Program-made: the position numbers and the translations under genes | Source of the DNA: Thiobacillus sp. | GTDB taxonomy: Bacteria > Pseudomonadota > Gammaproteobacteria > Burkholderiales > Thiobacillaceae | Assembly (NCBI GenBank): GCA_020217265.1 | Contig: JAIWOS010000078.1 | Location: 1-10,208, forward strand | Reading direction: 5' to 3' | Length of the DNA stretch: 10,208 nucleotides | Notes under the pieces: model-generated | Database searches by the model: none | Seen by the model: only the letters and a program-made list of their open reading frames with translations | Told to the model about the DNA's origin: nothing | Shown here: one piece after another, positions 1 through 10,071 of the stretch | How positions within the stretch are numbered: position 1 is the stretch's first letter | Layout: every line of letters starts with the position of its first letter

Positions 1-700
1 CGTCGAGGAAAAGGGTGCCGCCGTCGGCCAGTTCGAACAGTCCGCGCTTGGCGCGCTGGCCGCCGGTGAAGGCGCCCTTTTCATACCCGAACAGCTCGCT
101 TTCGCACAGGCTCTCGGGGATCGACGCGCAGTTGAGCTCGACGTAGGCCTTGCCCGCCCGGCCGGAATGTTCGTGCAGGAAACGCGCGGCAAGCTCCTTG
201 CCCACGCCGCTCTCGCCATACAGCCAGACCGGCGCGACGGTGCGCGCAGCCGTCGACAGTTCCTCGAAAAACCGCAAGAAGGCCGGGCTCTTGCCGGCCA
301 TGCGCATTTCCTCGCAGTTGATGTCCAGCCGCGGCGCCAGCCGGTGGATCGATTCCATCAGATACATCTGGCCGTCGGCATCGTGGATGGGGTGCGCCAG
401 GATGCGAACATGATCCGGCCGCCCCTCGAAATCGATGTGGGTGTGCAGCGCCTCGCAGGGCGCCGCCGTCGAAAAAACCTCCTGGTGCGGACATTGCTCG
501 CCGTTCAGATGACACGGGCGATCCGAGCGGTGGGATACCTGGTGACACGCCTTGCCGATGATTTCGTCCGGCGGTATGCCGTACGAGGTGCAGTAGGCCT
601 TGTTGGCAGCGACGATGCGGTAGTTCTTGTCGACCAGCACGGTCGGGTTGTCGCGCGTTTCCAGCAGGGAATACAAGGGCACAACGATGCGCCTGTCCAT
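1..700 (-). CDS. Sigma-54-dependent transcriptional activator with N-terminal PAS-like sensor (3' part off the window)
   Basis: The 233 codons present give the N-terminal half of a bacterial enhancer-binding protein, a cytoplasmic ATPase that remodels sigma-54 RNA polymerase. Residues 1-120 look like a PAS-type sensor and hold a Cys/His cluster (C52, H57, C63, C70, with C37 and C82 nearby). The AAA+ domain starts near residue 135: Walker A GESGVGKE at 162-169, the sigma-54 contact loop as GAFTGG at 209-214 (the usual form is GAFTGA), and the beginning of Walker B, LFLD, at 230-233. There is no receiver domain at the N-terminus, so it is probably not a classical two-component regulator. The ATG at 700-698 follows a strong GGAGGAG ribosome site. 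The gene is divergent from a sigma-54 promoter at 980-995 and a half-site array, so it most likely controls the operon starting at 1112. The rest of the ATPase and the HTH domain lie beyond base 1. The signal is unknown; the Cys/His cluster suggests redox or metal sensing. Confidence 0.93.
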   Translation of the reverse strand, partial: MDRRIVVPLYSLLETRDNPTVLVDKNYRIVAANKAYCTSYGIPPDEIIGKACHQVSHRSDRPCHLNGEQCPHQEVFSTAAPCEALHTHIDFEGRPDHVRILAHPIHDADGQMYLMESIHRLAPRLDINCEEMRMAGKSPAFLRFFEELSTAARTVAPVWLYGESGVGKELAARFLHEHSGRAGKAYVELNCASIPESLCESELFGYEKGAFTGGQRAKRGLFELADGGTLFLD

Positions 701-769: not shown

Positions 770-932
770 TGTCAGGCATGTCAGCACTGCCATGACGGAT
801 TGTCATGGATCGCGCCCCTTGCGCTCCAGAAGGGCCACACCTGGTCATGACAATTTGTCGCGGGAATTTGTCAGGCTGACAGTCCCGGTGGCCGCGGCCA
901 TGACAAAGTGTCAGCCTGTTCGCGGCATGTCA
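770..932. promoter_or_regulatory. Array of TGTCA/TGACA half-sites, probable activator binding region (UAS)
   Basis: Nine exact copies of TGTCA or its complement TGACA start at 770, 779, 801, 848, 869, 877, 901, 909 and 928, and two one-mismatch copies start at 793 and 856. Three 13-bp inverted repeats of the form TGACA-N3-TGTCA stand at 793-805 (one mismatch), 848-860 (one mismatch) and 901-913 (exact), with centres 55 and 53 bp apart. A reversed pair, TGTCA-N3-TGACA, is at 869-881. The first inverted repeat extends to 7-bp arms at 790-808. The exact pair nearest the promoter is centred about 75 bp upstream of the -24 element. This is where sigma-54 activators normally bind, so the divergent activator at 1-700 is the likely ligand. 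The array also covers the region where that gene's own promoter should lie, which would allow autoregulation. Confidence 0.75.
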
Positions 933-979: not shown

Positions 980-995
980 TGGCCTGTTCCTTGCT
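980..995 (+). promoter_or_regulatory. Sigma-54 (-24/-12) promoter of the 1112-6472 operon
   Basis: The sequence TGGCCTGTTCCTTGCT matches the sigma-54 consensus TGGCACG-N4-TTGCW, with GG at 981-982 and GC at 993-994 separated by exactly 10 bases. Transcription would start near 1006, giving a leader of about 106 nt before the ATG at 1112. The placement downstream of the half-site array and divergent from a sigma-54 activator gene supports the call. Confidence 0.82.
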
Positions 996-1111: not shown

Positions 1112-1777
1112 ATGAAATCCCCATTCCCGGGCCCCGTGCTCGCACGCAAGACGTTCGTCGCCACCCTCTTGACCGCCGGCACCCTGTTTGCCTCCAGCGC
1201 CATGGCGTTGACGATCGCCGAAACGGAAACCAACGATCCCTCGGGCACCCCCGGCGCATTGTCGTTTGCCAATGCCGATCAGGTGAGCAGCGGCAGCCAC
1301 ACCCTCACGGGCAGCACCAACCCCAACCAGGATGTGGACCTGTTTGCCTTCAATCTGGCCGCAGGCTCCACGTTTGTCGCCGACCTGGTCTCCATGACCC
1401 AGACCAGCATCGACGGCTACCAGACCCACTTCTACCTGTTCGACTCGAACCTGGTGGGCGTCGATTTCGACATCGATCCCAGTGACTTGAACGGCACCCT
1501 GGGGATCAAGCTCCAGACGAGCATCACCAACGCGGGCACCTACTACCTTGCCGTGGCCGGCCTGAACAACCACCCGATCTGCAATGCGAGCGGAACGTGC
1601 ATGGTCTACGACTTTATCGGCTCGCAACCGGTGTATCAGTGGAACAACCTGGGGCAGGGAACGGGCGATTACCAGATCAACGTGACCTCGGTACCGGAAG
1701 CCGACACCTACGCCATGCTGCTGGCGGGCCTGGGTCTGGTGGGCTTTGCCGTGCGTCGCCGCGCCCGGCAGGTCTGA
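1112..1777 (+). CDS. PEP-CTERM-type sorted protein with pre-peptidase C-terminal (PPC)-like domain
   Basis: This is a 221-residue exported protein. Residues 1-32 form a signal peptide with likely cleavage after AMA. Residues 34-193 resemble the bacterial PPC beta-sandwich, with the typical ETETND opening, DVDLFAFNL and the closing GDYQINV. The tail (194-221) is a PEP-CTERM-type sorting signal: VPEAD, a hydrophobic stretch and RRRAR. The motif reads PEA instead of PEP. Such tails are handled by an exosortase, which is not in this window, and the mature protein is expected at the cell surface or in the matrix. It is the first gene after the sigma-54 promoter. The start follows AGGAGGAG at 1095-1102. 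The second gene begins 31 bases after its stop. C157 and C163 could form a disulfide. Binding partner unknown. Confidence 0.9.
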   Translation: MKSPFPGPVLARKTFVATLLTAGTLFASSAMALTIAETETNDPSGTPGALSFANADQVSSGSHTLTGSTNPNQDVDLFAFNLAAGSTFVADLVSMTQTSIDGYQTHFYLFDSNLVGVDFDIDPSDLNGTLGIKLQTSITNAGTYYLAVAGLNNHPICNASGTCMVYDFIGSQPVYQWNNLGQGTGDYQINVTSVPEADTYAMLLAGLGLVGFAVRRRARQV

Positions 1778-1808
1778 ATCGAACAGTCAAAAAACAAGGA
1801 GACAACAC

Positions 1809-3533
1809 ATGAAACGACACTCGCACGCCGGGATCGCAGCCGGCATGAAAAAGCTTGCCCTGGCCAGCGCCCTGAGCCTGGGCATGACCTCGCTGGCGCA
1901 CGCCATCGCCTTCGAGGTCTGGATGAGCGACCAGGGCACGACGCACGACTCGGTCGCGCCTGCCAACTCCGTCACCAACCTGAATTCGCCGACCACCACC
2001 AGTGGGGGTTATTTGCGTATTTATCAGGGTGCCATTCTGCAATTCAACGCTGCTTCGGCCACCCCCGAGAACTATCACATCAACGGTGAGGGTGTGGTCG
2101 CAGGCGATAAGAAGTTGATGGATTACACCCAGTTCGGCGCACCCGCCAACTGGGGCAATCCGGCCATCCATGGCGCGAGCGTGCCCAAGCTGCGCGGCCT
2201 GCACGGCTGTCTGCCCTCGCCCAACCATCGCTACATGGCCTGCTCGATCCTGAACGGCTTTGTCGCGATCATCAGCGACGGAAGAACGCCGGTCGCGCTG
2301 TTCCGCGTTACGGGCACCAACACCGCAACCGGCGGCAATCCCCACATGTCGTTCTTCTCGAACGACGGCAAATATCTGCTGGTGGCCAACCAGAATGCGC
2401 GCATGCTGGAGCGTATCGACCTGACCTGGGACTCGGCAGGGGTCACCTTGGTCAGCGCCAATTACAACAAATCCGCCTCGCTCGATCTGGTCGGCGGTTC
2501 CAACGTGGTCGGCGGTGGCCGTCTCACCCGCGAGGCTGACACCCTGGCTGCTGCCACGATCAGCGCCACCAACCCGGGAACGAACATCGGCTCCGTGAGC
2601 GGCAGCTACGACGCCAGCGCGTTCTCCACCACCCTGCCCGACGGCTCGCTGAAGCAGACCGGCACCTCGGGTTCGCGCCCGAACAACAGCGTGATCTGCC
2701 CGCTTGCCATGGACAACAACCAGCACACGGTCGTGACCATGGCCGGTGGCGGCGCGTTCATCGTCGACCACACCACCACGCCGATGAAGATCGTGGCAGC
2801 CTACGACAAGACCCAGATTGCCGATGCCGGCTGCGGCGGCCTGGAAAACGCGGGTTACATGTACCTCGACCAGGGCACCTCGGTGGCGCCGACCAGCGCG
2901 CCGTGGAGCTGTCCTGCGGGCCAGGCGACCGACCGCTTCAGCGTCTACCGCCTGCCTTCGACCGGCTGGCCCAGCGGCGGCAGCTATCTCGCCACTCCGC
3001 CCAAGCCCTTTGTCATGCAGGATTTGGGCGCGAGCATGTGCACCACGACCGCGCTGGCCCGCGACGCGCACGGCATGACCTGGGGCGATTACGCGCGCAA
3101 CTACCTGCACGTCTGGGACCGCTTCCAGAACCAGATTCGCGTGTACAAGATGCCGGTCGGTACCCTGCAGGGCATCATCAACATCGGCGGCGGCGCAGTC
3201 TGCACCGACCCGACGCCCGACCTGGGGGATTATGTCTTCGTGCCGGCGCCCAATGCCACCTACACCAGCCTGAAGCCGCGCACCTACATGGCGCATCGCG
3301 GCAGCGGCCCGCTGTCGTTTGGCCACGCGGCCAGCGGCAATTGCGGCGGCCTGGGTATCTACGCGATCGATAACGGCGGCACCTCGGCCACGCTGGAGTT
3401 CGCCAACACGACCACCATCCCGGTAGTAGCCACCGACGTGAACGGCAATCCGACAAATCGCGGCGCCTACACCGGCCCCGCCACCAACACCACCGATCCG
3501 CATGCGGTCGCGGTGCGCATCAAGAGCTTCTAA
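1809..3533 (+). CDS. Exported beta-propeller-like protein (YVTN/YncE-like), function unknown
   Basis: The 574-residue product carries a signal peptide ending at AHA (residue 32). ATG 1809 is chosen because AAGGAG lies 7 bases upstream; the internal ATG at 1845 (residue 13, MKKLALAS) would give an even more typical signal peptide. The mature part has repeated beta-rich blade-like stretches, such as SPNHRYMACSILNGFVAII (136-154), SFFSNDGKYLLVANQN (181-196), TVVTMAGGGAFIVD (307-320) and YLHVWDRFQNQIRVYK (432-447). This pattern suggests a beta-propeller. Eight cysteines (134, 145, 297, 342, 368, 411, 465, 512) could pair in the periplasm or outside the cell. There is no PEP-CTERM tail. No catalytic motif is recognised. 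Being encoded two genes before a MauG-like enzyme, it is a candidate partner or substrate of that enzyme (inference). Confidence 0.85.
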   Translation: MKRHSHAGIAAGMKKLALASALSLGMTSLAHAIAFEVWMSDQGTTHDSVAPANSVTNLNSPTTTSGGYLRIYQGAILQFNAASATPENYHINGEGVVAGDKKLMDYTQFGAPANWGNPAIHGASVPKLRGLHGCLPSPNHRYMACSILNGFVAIISDGRTPVALFRVTGTNTATGGNPHMSFFSNDGKYLLVANQNARMLERIDLTWDSAGVTLVSANYNKSASLDLVGGSNVVGGGRLTREADTLAAATISATNPGTNIGSVSGSYDASAFSTTLPDGSLKQTGTSGSRPNNSVICPLAMDNNQHTVVTMAGGGAFIVDHTTTPMKIVAAYDKTQIADAGCGGLENAGYMYLDQGTSVAPTSAPWSCPAGQATDRFSVYRLPSTGWPSGGSYLATPPKPFVMQDLGASMCTTTALARDAHGMTWGDYARNYLHVWDRFQNQIRVYKMPVGTLQGIINIGGGAVCTDPTPDLGDYVFVPAPNATYTSLKPRTYMAHRGSGPLSFGHAASGNCGGLGIYAIDNGGTSATLEFANTTTIPVVATDVNGNPTNRGAYTGPATNTTDPHAVAVRIKSF

Positions 3534-3549
3534 TCCGGAAGCCTGACCC

Positions 3550-3578
3550 AAGCCGGGCGGCCACCCGCTGTCCGGCTT
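3550..3578 (+). other. Intergenic stem-loop, possible processing or attenuation hairpin
   Basis: AAGCCGG (3550-3556) pairs with CCGGCTT (3572-3578), and inside it GCGG (3557-3560) pairs with CCGC (3565-3568), leaving a CCAC loop and a 3-base bulge. It sits in the 76-base gap between the beta-propeller gene and the next gene. No T-run follows, so it is not a classical terminator. It could protect the upstream mRNA or dampen read-through. Confidence 0.5.
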
Positions 3579-3609
3579 CATTCAGTCCTCCAGACACGTG
3601 CAGAGCCTC

Positions 3610-4065
3610 ATGAAACACCCTTACCTGTTCAGCTTCTTCCTGGCAGCCAGCGCAGCGCTGCTGCCTGCCGCCAGCACGCTCGCGCAAACTCCCGGAACCG
3701 TCGAAAACACGCCCTTCGACAACATCCGTTCCGCCACCTGGGACACCGACGACGGACGCTACAGCGTACATCTGGACGAGGTGCCTGCCGTATTGAAATC
3801 GGGCGAGCTGCAAAGCTGGTGCGTGCGCGTGACCGATGCCCGGGGAAAGCCCGCACGCAACATCAAGCTGCGCTTTACCGGCGGCATGCCCCAGCATGGC
3901 CACGGCCTGCCTTCGGTTCCCGCCACCTCGGCAGGCAAGGGGAAATGCCCCTACCGCATCGACGGCATCGAATTCCATATGCCCGGCGTCTGGCAGATCG
4001 GCTTCGACATCGTGGGCCGGGATGGCAGGCGCCAGGAAATCAGGCGTTTCGTGAATGTGAACTGA
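3610..4065 (+). CDS. YtkA/FixH-like exported protein, possible metal binder
   Basis: The 151-residue product has a signal peptide (about 1-25, ending STLA). Its mature part resembles the YtkA-like/FixH-like beta-sandwich family: WCVRVTDARGKP (70-81), MPQHGHGLP (93-101) and FHMPGVWQIGFDI (122-134) are the family's recognisable blocks. Met93, His96, His98, His123 and Met124 form a His/Met-rich set that could bind copper (inference). C71 and C113 may form a disulfide. ATG 3610 is preferred; an in-frame GTG at 3598 would add four residues, and neither has a good ribosome site. The gene lies 8 bases before the di-heme cytochrome gene, so the two are probably translated from one message and may work together. 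Confidence 0.82.
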   Translation: MKHPYLFSFFLAASAALLPAASTLAQTPGTVENTPFDNIRSATWDTDDGRYSVHLDEVPAVLKSGELQSWCVRVTDARGKPARNIKLRFTGGMPQHGHGLPSVPATSAGKGKCPYRIDGIEFHMPGVWQIGFDIVGRDGRRQEIRRFVNVN

Positions 4066-4072
4066 GTTCGTC

Positions 4073-5323
4073 ATGGGCCGCCTCGCCACCCTGCTGCTCG
4101 TTGCCGCCCTGGCAGGACTGACCAGCGGCTACGGAACGCCGGAGCTTGCGCAAACGGCGCCGCGGTTCGCGCCCGACGAAATTGCACTCGCCGCCTCGCT
4201 AAAGTTGCCCGAACCGCTGGTCGCTCCGGCCGACCCCAGCAACCGGTACGCGGACAACCCCCGGGCCGCAGACCTCGGCAAGGCGCTGTTCTTCGATGTG
4301 CGCCTGTCGGCGAACGGTTCGACCTCGTGTGCGAGCTGCCATCGCCCGGAACTGGCTTTCAGCGACGCCGCGCGCTTTTCAAAAGGCCTGGGCACGGCGC
4401 AGCGCAACACCCCGACGCTGGTGGGCAGCGCCTGGTCGCGCTGGTATTTCTGGGACGGGCGTAGCGATTCCCACTGGGGACAGGCCCTGGGGCCCCTGCT
4501 TCATCCGGACGAACAGGGCCTGACACGCACCGCACTGGCACACCGGATACGCACACACTACCGCCAGCAATACGAATCCCTGTTCGGCCCGTTTCCCCGG
4601 CTGGGCATGAACCTTCACGCCGGCCCCGAAAGCGGTGACGCCGCTGAGGCCACCTGGAGGCGCATGCCCGCCGTCCAGCGCCAGGCCGTCGAGCGGATAC
4701 TGGCCAATGTCGCCAAGGCGATTGCAGCCTACGAGCGGACCCTGGTGCCTGAACCCACGCGCTTCGACCGGTTCGCGGCGGCGCTTGCGGCCGGCCGGCA
4801 ACAGGAAGCCCGCAGCCTGCTGTCCCGCGACGAGATTCAGGGGTTCCGCCTCTTTGTCGGCAGCGCGCGCTGTATCCAGTGCCACAACGGCCCCATGCTG
4901 AGCAATTACCAGTTCCACAACACCGGCCTGCACGAAGCGGATCGCCCCTCGCACATGGGGCACCGCGCCGGCGTGCAGCTCGCGCGGGCCAGCGATTTCA
5001 GCTGCCTCGGCCGTCACAGCGACGACACGCGCCACTGTCCCTCGCGCTTTGTCGGCCTGCTGCAGGACATGAACGCAGGCACCTTCAAGACCCCCACCCT
5101 GCGCAATCTCGCCCTGACCGCGCCCTACATGCACACCGGCGAATTTTCCACGCTGGACGAAGTCATCGCGCACTACGACCAGGGCGGGCGCAGCAACGGC
5201 AGGCCCGGCGTCATCGGCAACGAACTCGTCCGGCTCGGGTTGAGCGAACTGGAGCGCCGTCAGCTCAAGGCCTTCCTGCTCACCCTGTCGCCGCCGCAGC
5301 CGGAGGCAGGAGGCGGCACGTGA
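4073..5323 (+). CDS. MauG-like di-heme cytochrome c peroxidase-family protein
   Basis: This 416-residue exported protein has two c-heme sites: C86-A-S-C89-H90 and C267-I-Q-C270-H271. A signal peptide covers about residues 1-26. FWDGR at 126-130 carries the Trp (W127) that lies between the hemes in this family. The region TPTLRNLALTAPYMHTGEF is the usual C-terminal block, followed by TLDEVIAHYDQGG. There Tyr368 falls where bacterial cytochrome c peroxidases have the Met ligand of the second heme. A Tyr ligand is the hallmark of MauG-type enzymes, which use peroxide to oxidise residues in a partner protein. C311 and C322 may form a disulfide. No good ribosome site precedes ATG 4073, 8 bases after the previous stop, so translational coupling is likely. 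A plain peroxidase remains possible. Confidence 0.92.
   Translation: MGRLATLLLVAALAGLTSGYGTPELAQTAPRFAPDEIALAASLKLPEPLVAPADPSNRYADNPRAADLGKALFFDVRLSANGSTSCASCHRPELAFSDAARFSKGLGTAQRNTPTLVGSAWSRWYFWDGRSDSHWGQALGPLLHPDEQGLTRTALAHRIRTHYRQQYESLFGPFPRLGMNLHAGPESGDAAEATWRRMPAVQRQAVERILANVAKAIAAYERTLVPEPTRFDRFAAALAAGRQQEARSLLSRDEIQGFRLFVGSARCIQCHNGPMLSNYQFHNTGLHEADRPSHMGHRAGVQLARASDFSCLGRHSDDTRHCPSRFVGLLQDMNAGTFKTPTLRNLALTAPYMHTGEFSTLDEVIAHYDQGGRSNGRPGVIGNELVRLGLSELERRQLKAFLLTLSPPQPEAGGGT
5308..5313 (+). promoter_or_regulatory. Ribosome binding site fixing a GTG start
   Basis: AGGAGG lies 6 bases before the GTG at 5320, inside the end of the di-heme cytochrome gene. It decides in favour of GTG 5320; the upstream part of the same open frame is only a shadow of the cytochrome gene. 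Confidence 0.75.
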
Positions 5324-5841
5324 AAACCGTCCTTGCCTTCGTGCTGGTCATTGCGGGCGTGCTGCCCCTGCCATCGCATGCGGACGGCGGCGCCATGCTG
5401 CTGGAACACCATCTGGAACTGGACACCACGACCCCCGCCGTGACGGACTACCGGGTCGACGGCATGTATACACTTCACGAAAGCCTGCGCAACGCCACCG
5501 GCAAAGCCTGGAGCGGCTTGCACATCGAACTGGTCCGTCAGCGGGGCACCCATTTCGTTCCGGTCTCCGCCAGCGATGGCGTCAGCTTCATGCGCGCGGA
5601 GCCGACGCTCGCCTGGCGTCCCACGGTCGAAGTTCGCATCGACGGCCATTACCTCGGGCTGGCCGGCGGCGGCTGGCAACTGCAACGCAGTGAAGCCGCC
5701 ACAGCATTGGAGATGCGTTTCGAGGAAATCCCGGTCGCGCCCGGCGCCCTGGTTCAGCTCAGATTACGCGTACTGAACACCCACGACACCACCTGGCGGC
5801 TGCGCTACACCCCCAAGCTTGCGCCCGGAGAGTCCGGCTGA
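5320..5841 (+). CDS. Exported protein of unknown function
   Basis: The 173-residue product starts at GTG 5320, overlapping the cytochrome stop by 4 bases (GTGA), with AGGAGG 6 bases upstream. The N-terminus MKTVLAFVLVIAGVLPLPSHA is a clear signal peptide. The mature part has alternating beta-strand character (GLHIELVRQRG, VEVRIDGHYLGL, ALVQLRLRVLN), suggesting a beta-sandwich, and has no cysteines, heme motif or sorting tail. I do not recognise the family. The tight overlap implies coupled translation with the MauG-like enzyme, so a structural partner or substrate role is plausible. Four tryptophans (in AWSGL, AWRPT, GWQLQ and TWRLR) are possible targets of oxidation if it is the substrate (inference). 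Confidence 0.82.
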   Translation: MKTVLAFVLVIAGVLPLPSHADGGAMLLEHHLELDTTTPAVTDYRVDGMYTLHESLRNATGKAWSGLHIELVRQRGTHFVPVSASDGVSFMRAEPTLAWRPTVEVRIDGHYLGLAGGGWQLQRSEAATALEMRFEEIPVAPGALVQLRLRVLNTHDTTWRLRYTPKLAPGESG

Positions 5842-5887
5842 CCCGATTTTTCCTCTGGCACAAACCACACTCGCTATCGGAGACAAC

Positions 5888-6472
5888 ATGCCCCCCCTCA
5901 GAATGCTCATCCTGGCCACACTGACGATCGCCGCCCCGCTGGCGAATGCCGACACAGGTCCCACCGCGACAACCGTCGCCAAACCCGATATCGCCATCGA
6001 GGGCAGCCTCAACGAAATCATGATCGGCGGCGGTACCGGCCTGGCTGCCCGACGGATCACCTGGCGCCACCGCCAGCTCACCATGTATCCGGACTGGGCC
6101 GTGGGCGGCACCCAAAAGGGCGAATGCAAAATCCAGCTCATGTACAAGCTCAGCAATCTCGGCGACGCGCCCACCGGCCGTCCCTTCAAGGTGCAACTGC
6201 TCAACAACGACAAAGTGGTGGGTGAGGACCGCATCGAGCCGCTGGGGCCGAAGGAAAGCAGGGTCATCGTCACGCATGGCCTCTTCACCCGCGGACAACA
6301 CTGGTTCACCCTGCGCATCGACCCCGACAATGCGGTCAGCGAATCGCTCGAGGACAACAACGAACACAAGTTCGATTACACGCTCAACGGAAAATGCCCC
6401 GCCAGCCACAAGCCTGGCAGCAAACAGTCTGGCCCCGTCCAGCCCACCGGCATCACGCGCCCGGCGGGCTGA
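5888..6472 (+). CDS. Exported CARDB-like domain protein
   Basis: The 194-residue product begins at ATG 5888 with GGAG 5 bases upstream; the open frame extends 69 bases further up but without a supported start. A signal peptide ends near residue 21 (LANA). Residues 81-167 resemble a CARDB (cell-adhesion-related, Ig-like) domain: IQLMYKLSNLGDAPTG, PFKVQLLNNDKVVGEDRI and the closing RIDPDNAVSESLEDNNEHKF, the typical D-x-x-N-x-V-x-E-x-x-E-x-N-N pattern. C80 and C170 flank the domain and could pair. The last 24 residues are low-complexity Pro/Gly/Ser. CARDB modules usually mediate binding to other proteins or surfaces, so a scaffold role is reasonable. It is the last gene of the putative sigma-54 operon. 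Confidence 0.83.
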   Translation: MPPLRMLILATLTIAAPLANADTGPTATTVAKPDIAIEGSLNEIMIGGGTGLAARRITWRHRQLTMYPDWAVGGTQKGECKIQLMYKLSNLGDAPTGRPFKVQLLNNDKVVGEDRIEPLGPKESRVIVTHGLFTRGQHWFTLRIDPDNAVSESLEDNNEHKFDYTLNGKCPASHKPGSKQSGPVQPTGITRPAG

Positions 6473-7462: not shown

Positions 7463-7894
7463 TTGCATACTCATATTTGTATCCGCCATTTCCGGCAAAC
7501 CGGCTTCACGCTGCTCGAGCTTCTGGTCGTGCTGGTGATTCTTGGCTTGCTCGCCGGCTATGTCGCGCCCAAATACTTCTCGCAGGTTGGAAAATCCGAG
7601 GTCAAAACCGCGCGCGCGCAGATCGAAGCGCTGGAAAAGGCGCTCGACCAGTACCGCATCGACACCGGACACTATCCCAGCACCGAACAGGGACTGGCCG
7701 CCCTCAACAGCAAACCGGCCGACGAAGCGCGCTGGGACGGCCCCTACCTGAAAAAAGCCGTCCCCAACGACCCCTGGGGAAAACCCTACCAGTACCGGAT
7801 GCCCGGCGAGAAATCCGAAGTGGACATCTATTCCTTTGGCCGCGACGGCCAGCCGGGCGGAACCGGTGAAAACGCGGATATCGGCAACTGGTAA
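7463..7894 (+). CDS. gspG: Type II secretion major pseudopilin GspG
   Basis: The 143-residue product has a prepilin leader cleaved after G14: G-FTLLELLVVLVILGLLAG, with Phe at +1 and the conserved Glu (E19) at +5, followed by the long N-terminal helix. YVAPKYFSQVGKSEVKTA, TGHYPSTEQGLAAL, DPWGKPYQY and the ending SFGRDGQPGGTGENADIGNW-type block are diagnostic of GspG, including the Asp-rich calcium-site region. Its subunits assemble into the periplasmic pseudopilus of the type II secretion system after processing by a prepilin peptidase (not in the window). The start is TTG 7463 with GAGGA upstream. It opens a gene run in the order gspG - protease - gspF - gspE; a terminator lies upstream. Confidence 0.95.
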   Translation: MHTHICIRHFRQTGFTLLELLVVLVILGLLAGYVAPKYFSQVGKSEVKTARAQIEALEKALDQYRIDTGHYPSTEQGLAALNSKPADEARWDGPYLKKAVPNDPWGKPYQYRMPGEKSEVDIYSFGRDGQPGGTGENADIGNW

Positions 7895-8886: not shown

Positions 8887-10071
8887 ATGCGTTATCGCGT
8901 CAAGGCGCTTGCCCCCGGCAAAGGCATCACGGCATTCACGCTCGATGCGATCGACGAAGCCGATGCCCTCGCGCGGCTGCGGCGCGACGGCACCCGGGTG
9001 CTCTCGCTCAGCGCCGAGCGCGGCGGACTGCTGGCGGCGCGGCGCGCGCGTTTTCCCCTGTCGCTTTTCACCCAGGAACTCATCGCCCTGCTCGACGCCG
9101 GTCTCACGCTCACCGAGGCGCTCGAAACGCTGGCCGAAAAGGACAGTCGCGCCGAATCGCGCCAGCTGATCGAACGCCTGCTTGCCACCATGCGCGACGG
9201 CAAGCCGTTTTCCGCCGCACTGGCCGCGCAGGGCGCGACCTTCCCGCCGCTGTATGCCGCCACGGTGAGGGCCGCCGAAAGCACGGGCGACCTGTCGCCT
9301 GCGCTCGCCCGCTACGTCGCCTACCAGAACCAGATCGACACCGTGAAAAAGAAGGTCGTCTCGGCGTCGGTCTACCCGGCGCTACTGATCGGCGTCGGCA
9401 CGCTGGTGATCGCCTTCCTGCTCGGCTACGTGGTGCCGCGCTTCGCCTCGGTCTACGCTGATGCGGGCCGCGACCTGCCCTGGATGTCCCGCATGCTGCT
9501 GGCCTGGGGCGAAACCGTGTCCGCACACGGCGGCTGGATCGCGGCGGGCGCCCTGCTCCTCATCGCCACGGTGGCCGCCGCCCTCATCCGGCCGGCCACG
9601 CGCGCCGCGCTGACGCGCCTTGCCTGGCGCACACCCGCCATCGGCACGCACCTGCGCACCTTCGAGCTTGCCCGGTTCTACCGCAGCCTGGGCATGCTGC
9701 TCACCGGCGGCATACCGATCGTGCAGGCGCTCGGCATGGTGTCGGACCTGCTCTCGGCGCACCTGCGGCAAGGTGCTGCCACCGCGATCGAAGCGATGCG
9801 GCGCGGCGAGTCGATATCCGCCGCCTTCGACCGCGGCGCGCTGACCACGCCGGTGGCCGCCCGGCTCTTGCGCGTGGGCGAAAAGAGCGGCCGCATGGGC
9901 GAGATGATGGAGCGCATCGCGATCTTCCACGACGAGGAAATGGCGCGCTGGGTCGACTGGTTCACGCGGCTGTTCGAACCGCTCCTGATGGTGATCATCG
10001 GGCTGACCATCGGACTGATCGTGGTGCTGCTCTACATGCCGATTTTCGAACTCGCGGGGTCGATCCAGTGA
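8887..10071 (+). CDS. gspF: Type II secretion inner-membrane platform protein GspF
   Basis: The 394-residue length is normal for GspF. Two homologous T2SSF repeats are visible: FTQELIALLDAGLTLTEAL (61-79) and ARFYRSLGMLLTGGIPIVQAL (262-282), each followed by the ESTGDL / GEKSGRMGEM motif (131-136; 331-340). Three membrane segments lie near 164-184, 214-234 and 364-386. The protein forms the inner-membrane platform that links the GspE ATPase to pseudopilus growth. ATG 8887 lies 12 bases after the protease stop without a good ribosome site, so coupling is likely. PilC of type IV pili is related, but the neighbouring gspG favours secretion. Confidence 0.94.
   Translation: MRYRVKALAPGKGITAFTLDAIDEADALARLRRDGTRVLSLSAERGGLLAARRARFPLSLFTQELIALLDAGLTLTEALETLAEKDSRAESRQLIERLLATMRDGKPFSAALAAQGATFPPLYAATVRAAESTGDLSPALARYVAYQNQIDTVKKKVVSASVYPALLIGVGTLVIAFLLGYVVPRFASVYADAGRDLPWMSRMLLAWGETVSAHGGWIAAGALLLIATVAAALIRPATRAALTRLAWRTPAIGTHLRTFELARFYRSLGMLLTGGIPIVQALGMVSDLLSAHLRQGAATAIEAMRRGESISAAFDRGALTTPVAARLLRVGEKSGRMGEMMERIAIFHDEEMARWVDWFTRLFEPLLMVIIGLTIGLIVVLLYMPIFELAGSIQ

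Follow-up and report, generated by a model that had tools for sequence, protein, structure and literature searches.

A YtkA-like protein as the constant genomic partner of a distinct clade of MauG-family di-haem enzymes

What is encoded in the window analysed here, a stretch of 10,208 bases from an 85% complete Thiobacillus sp. assembly (GCA_020217265.1, contig JAIWOS010000078.1)? Between positions 1112 and 6472, co-directional genes on the plus strand specify a PEP-CTERM protein, an exported beta-propeller of 574 residues (1809..3533), a YtkA-like exported protein (3598..4065), a di-haem enzyme of the MauG family (4073..5323), an exported protein of 173 residues (5320..5841) and an exported CARDB-domain protein (5888..6472; PF07705, 39.7 bits). 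An initial annotation, which read the enzyme and its exported neighbours as a protein-modification module, had described real genes at their correct coordinates. Across genomes, the safest statement is that of a smaller, constant pair: a copper-type YtkA protein together with a distinct clade of di-haem enzymes.

The enzyme is the sole PF03150 match in its own assembly (136.9 bits against a gathering cut-off of 25.6), and the assignment is borne out by alignments, a tree and a structure model (predicted local distance difference test, pLDDT, 88.9). The haem-site residues of its two CxxCH motifs—C86, C89 and H90, and C267, C270 and H271—are invariant in 59 sequences, the window included, chosen among the 120 top database matches. 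It carries a putative MauG-type ligand set of His90, His271 and Tyr368, along with Gln137, Pro141 and Glu147. Tyr368 had been placed at the position of a Met ligand, and the alignment agrees: it lines up with the Tyr of an annotated MauG (L186; L numbers denote loci and G numbers genomes compared in this analysis), so that Tyr rather than Met is the expected ligand. Among YtkA-linked enzymes the position holds Tyr in 39 of 40, window included, the one gap belonging to the split L130 gene, of which only the first piece was used. In this the enzyme departs from classical bacterial cytochrome c peroxidases, which have Met as sixth ligand there. As a mark of modification Tyr368 does not discriminate, since Tyr is also found in 16 of 29 controls. 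The scores against the MauG profile (TIGR03791; 164.5 bits, equivalog cut-off 443.85) and the MbnH profile (TIGR04039; 150.2 bits, cut-off 362.85) led us to discard both of these names for the enzyme.

To which gene, then, is this enzyme tied? We compared 40 enzyme loci, the window and 39 further ones. At E ≤ 1e-60, the class search contributed 14 non-own places spread over 13 genomes (14 of 274 genomes, own included), the phylum search 13 non-own places (14 of 398 genomes, own included) and the family search a single non-own genome, G362. From 42 genomes that carry a propeller, six of seven places (E ≤ 1e-40) were added, the truncated piece L151 being dropped, as were the best 5 of 300 plasmid records. 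Because the loci are not independent—they are related to one another, and nine of the 13 phylum loci stem from one family—we give counts and no probabilities. At 39 of the 40 loci, a YtkA-like open reading frame lies on the same strand, upstream of or overlapping the enzyme gene. The overlap is exactly 4 bases at five loci; the large overlaps at L142, L156, L176, L180 and L183 reflect enzyme frames drawn from the first possible start. At the 40th locus, L144, a degenerate YtkA domain devoid of HxH is, as judged by eye, apparently fused to the N-terminus of the enzyme. For comparison, 28 distant PF03150 loci within the same family of organisms served as controls, and none has a YtkA-like gene in its flanks (≤1.5 kb on each side).

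No other gene was seen, by eye and without clustering, to recur beside the pair across loci. This leaves the YtkA protein as the sole partner seen whose constancy would suit a general substrate. The proposal that the enzyme is encoded beside its partner, as are MauG, MbnH and CorB, thus holds for the YtkA protein and fails for the remaining neighbours. The five genes from propeller to CARDB protein do not stay together: a propeller gene accompanies the pair at 3 of the 39 other loci, and the 173-residue and CARDB genes at none (the latter searched with a one-sequence profile), which rules out a five-gene module. The pair itself occurs in Pseudomonadota, among them Polaromonas naphthalenivorans, where it is borne by a plasmid (L127), on a Gemmatirosa plasmid and in a Caldilineaceae metagenome-assembled genome, and no YtkA relatives were confirmed in the viral contigs scanned. 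A report of a YtkA/MauG-type pair was not found in the literature searched.

Both members of the pair carry residues that set them apart. In a tree of 71 sequences, all 40 YtkA-linked enzymes fall into a single clade that takes in no other sequence (support 0.992). They share Trp135 (40/40, versus 0/29 controls), and Cys311 and Cys322 each occur in 37/40 versus 0/29; all three are invariant in the 59-sequence alignment. Trp135 opens the model helix 134–143, two residues ahead of Gln137, and its place at this helix start near Gln137 makes it a candidate electron relay. The initial annotation had pointed to W127 instead, whose standing is weakened: it is present in 38/40 clade enzymes and replaced by His in the enzyme linked to MTO. 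What we take to be the position of MauG Trp199 aligns with Ala265 here, and the comparison is uninformative, with Ala in the annotated MauG as well.

For the partner, PF13115 scores 31.3 bits (gathering cut-off 25.9). Counting from the GTG at 3598 (an in-frame ATG follows at 3610), Met97, His100, His102, Gly103, Met128 and Trp132 are invariant in all 39 YtkA sequences, window included and L144 left out, and Trp74 is kept in 34 of them. Among 30 PF13115 loci, the MxxHxH motif occurs in 7/7 YtkA domains with a MauG-profile match in their flanks, all from genomes already represented in the 40 loci, versus 0/23 of the others, seven of which show MPxM in its place. Searched against the PDB, the YtkA profile gave a single match up to E = 1, the copper resistance protein 9ll2 (E 0.0044). 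In Bacillus subtilis, YtkA domains help to supply cytochrome oxidase with copper and act in CuA assembly, as described in the available parts of PMC13344008 and PMC9145763. With copper handling known for YtkA domains in other systems, the constant unit appears to pair a copper protein with a di-haem enzyme. Judging from conservation, Met97, His100, His102 and Met128 would form a candidate copper site, accompanied by Trp132 and Trp74.

Several loci of the pair stand out by their surroundings. At L138 (7924–14154), the pair is flanked by two proteins with copper amine oxidase domains (PF01179) and a tyrosinase (PF00264). Giant proteins of 2486 and 2728 residues, with weak MauG-profile matches of their own, adjoin it at L140 (1523–8983) and L183 (25–8211), respectively.

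To our knowledge, targets are known for only a few enzymes of the MauG family. MbnP features kynurenine chemistry, and oxidation or assembly of a copper site is reportedly proposed for MbnH acting with MbnP. By its title, structure 6e1c, presumably MbnH, is a MauG-like protein tied to microbial copper homeostasis, a role that the present enzyme may share; where the present enzyme has Trp135 it carries Glu, and the partner here is YtkA-like. MbnP and MbnH are described as a pair in the part of PMC3621798 available. Similarly, in the accessible text of PMC3912023, the CorB–CorA and SACCP–MopE systems combine a di-haem enzyme gene with that of a secreted copper protein, CorA binding copper by two His with an adjacent kynurenine, whereas the partner here belongs to PF13115. 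The claim that known partners are absent stands in part: among the ten window proteins scanned there are no mau genes and no MbnP, while CorA and MopE were not searched for. At the MauG locus L186, by comparison, mauA and amicyanin adjoin mauG. MbnP (PF20243) was also not found elsewhere in the genome, in a search of the 85% complete assembly that had no positive control. In the mtoX–SCO1–mauG row, a copper propeller enzyme, a copper chaperone and a MauG-type enzyme follow one another (PMC5739008, as far as its available text goes), and the window shares this three-part layout with Ruegeria (L187). Here, however, YtkA takes the place of SCO, which is missing among the same ten proteins. The propeller showed no similarity to MtoX when compared with it and also occurs without the enzyme; in the MTO-linked enzyme, position 135 is Glu and Cys311/Cys322 are missing. 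Finally, CtaK, the B. subtilis YtkA, is likewise an exported PF13115-type protein with conserved His and Met and acts in CuA assembly; a MauG-family gene is not mentioned for it in the available portions of the sources. By the tests run on the sequences, enzyme and unit fall outside the MauG and MbnH families and the mtoX system, and by analogy the unit would work most like the CorA/CorB and MbnP/MbnH pairs.

Taken together, these observations suggest a unit for maturation or redox chemistry that is linked to copper. We put the odds at roughly one in two that it is a two-protein exported unit, in which a YtkA-fold copper-binding protein is modified by a MauG-family enzyme dedicated to it; protein modification by the enzyme is plausible. 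In such a scheme, the YtkA protein would hold copper at Met97/His100/His102/Met128, and the enzyme, using H2O2 and its two haems, would withdraw electrons from it via surface residues, with Trp135 as the candidate relay. This withdrawal may oxidise or assemble the YtkA copper site, as proposed for CorB with CorA in the part of PMC3912023 available. Already as it stands, the constant partner and its characteristic motif make a subfamily without an assigned role accessible to experiment as a system of two proteins. If true, the scheme would connect copper delivery with protein oxidation by di-haem enzymes in organisms other than methanotrophs. More tentatively, and with the balance tilting against it, the pair could make up a separate, widespread class, wherein the Trp135/Cys311–Cys322 clade modifies the YtkA-fold partner and thereby creates an MxxHxH...M...W copper site that would metallate client proteins, for instance the five-His propeller.

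Alternatively, the enzyme may be an ordinary periplasmic H2O2 peroxidase, the YtkA protein serving as a copper- or electron-donating, or copper-protecting, companion that is not modified at all. A precedent exists in BthA, which has a Tyr ligand and reaches the bis-Fe(IV) state, yet turns over H2O2 (PMC6405878, in the portion available). Moreover, Gln137, Pro141, Glu147 and the fold are common to other members of the family. A plain peroxidase would leave both the clade-linked difference in the YtkA motif and the clade-specific Trp135 unexplained, and we consider it unlikely.

Another alternative is that the pair matures a third protein, with YtkA delivering copper and the enzyme oxidising residues of the neighbouring five-His propeller, much as has been suggested for MtoX, SCO1 and MauG in Ruegeria (available text of PMC5739008), the layout of which the window shares. 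The propeller assignment comes from a 51-sequence alignment, a confident structure model, a fold match that supports a beta-propeller, and neighbours; no Pfam family matches at E ≤ 1. Five His (132, 179, 421, 506 and 565) together with Cys297 and Cys342 are invariant in the 51 sequences, window included. The family is rare: it has at least 65 proteins, counting this one, and among 300 genomes of the order only its own carries it. With 4–19 kb of sequence inspected per locus, a gene of this family lies near the pair in the window, L130, L133 and L136. Propellers of the L133 type occur in 2 of 248 genomes, that of the query and a second one, and in each the pair adjoins. These propeller-bearing loci fall in separate parts of the enzyme clade, the deep nodes of which are weakly supported.

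Against a third-protein substrate stand the 36 of 39 other pair loci that have no propeller. Of 127 propeller loci in other species, 80 were kept, and a PF03150 enzyme was present in the flanks of only one of them. That locus, L043 (9881–13446), has the propeller relative followed by an enzyme with an invasin-type domain, outside the YtkA-linked clade. For 42 of the 80 loci, the propeller-carrying genome was searched for the enzyme at E ≤ 1e-40, and 37 of these 42 genomes lack it. The same-genus genome G381 encodes a 91% identical propeller with no pair nearby, its best enzyme match reaching 2.3e-12. In G362, also of the genus, the propeller frame is open and the enzyme frame split in two (L130, 8965–10198), be it by decay or by assembly error. 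Nor is the propeller recognisably an SBP56 protein: hhalign against R. pomeroyi MtoX gives a probability of 0.3%. Among the fold matches listed for the model, SBP56 does not figure. The propeller is a recurrent but not a constant neighbour of the pair, the link is not obligate, and that the pair serves to mature a third protein, here the propeller, we rate as unlikely.

Returning to the two-protein unit, the propeller has a possible place in it other than that of a constant substrate. Downstream of the gene run, the window encodes the type II secretion pseudopilin GspG (7463..7894, plus strand; TIGR01710, 191.4 bits) and GspF (8887..10071, plus strand; phmmer 5.1e-209 to a PF00482 protein of L130), and genes for this secretion system lie near the unit at L130 and L133 as well. 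As the unit stands beside a five-His propeller and type II secretion genes in this lineage and a few others, the propeller may be a client, given copper or matured by the pair prior to its secretion. A likeness of the propeller to nitrous oxide reductase (7aq7; Foldseek rank 37, TMq 0.40) was too weak to use. At L143 (3883–5406) and L174 (6370–7764), a different propeller-type protein, with LVIVD repeat matches near the cut-off, adjoins the pair.

That the 173-residue protein is the substrate in the window lineage appears very improbable: its gene overlaps that of the enzyme by 4 bases, and W64, W119 and W159 are invariant in 14 sequences of its family (window and L020 included), but it is found at 0/39 other enzyme loci, and a weak relative (E 1.9e-4; L020, 11851–12519) lies next to a relative of the propeller in Methylobacter sp. 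BlB1, in whose genome nothing matches the enzyme at E ≤ 1e-40. The protein has 12 close relatives, six of which lie on contigs equal in size to those carrying enzyme relatives. This suggests, indirectly and with chance not controlled for, that in close relatives this gene and that of the enzyme stay together; one further contig-size match (P0016/P0069) is probably due to chance.

The first gene of the run (1112..1777, plus strand) encodes an FxDxF-type PEP-CTERM protein with a PPC domain (PF07589, PF04151, NF038126), and nothing supports its membership in the unit. Further upstream, a divergent gene on the minus strand (2..700), cut by the contig end, encodes a PAS-containing sigma-54 activator (PF00158, 120.5 bits; PF08448, 53 bits). 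Between the two, three tandem GCCATGAC-N4-TGTCA-like repeats (789..913, plus strand) represent candidate activator sites, the copies starting at 789, 844 and 897 with spacings of 55 and 53 and identities of 100, 71 and 82%. They are followed by a sigma-54-like –24/–12 element (980..994, plus strand) of the form TGGC-N7-TTGC; it is the single match in the window, where 0.85 are expected on average by chance. Activator gene, repeats and –24/–12-like element suggest that the gene run might be under sigma-54 control. A relative of the PAS activator (E 1.3e-29) adjoins a propeller relative in another metagenome-assembled genome (L019, 3795–5240), besides the window the sole such case among the 80 propeller loci.

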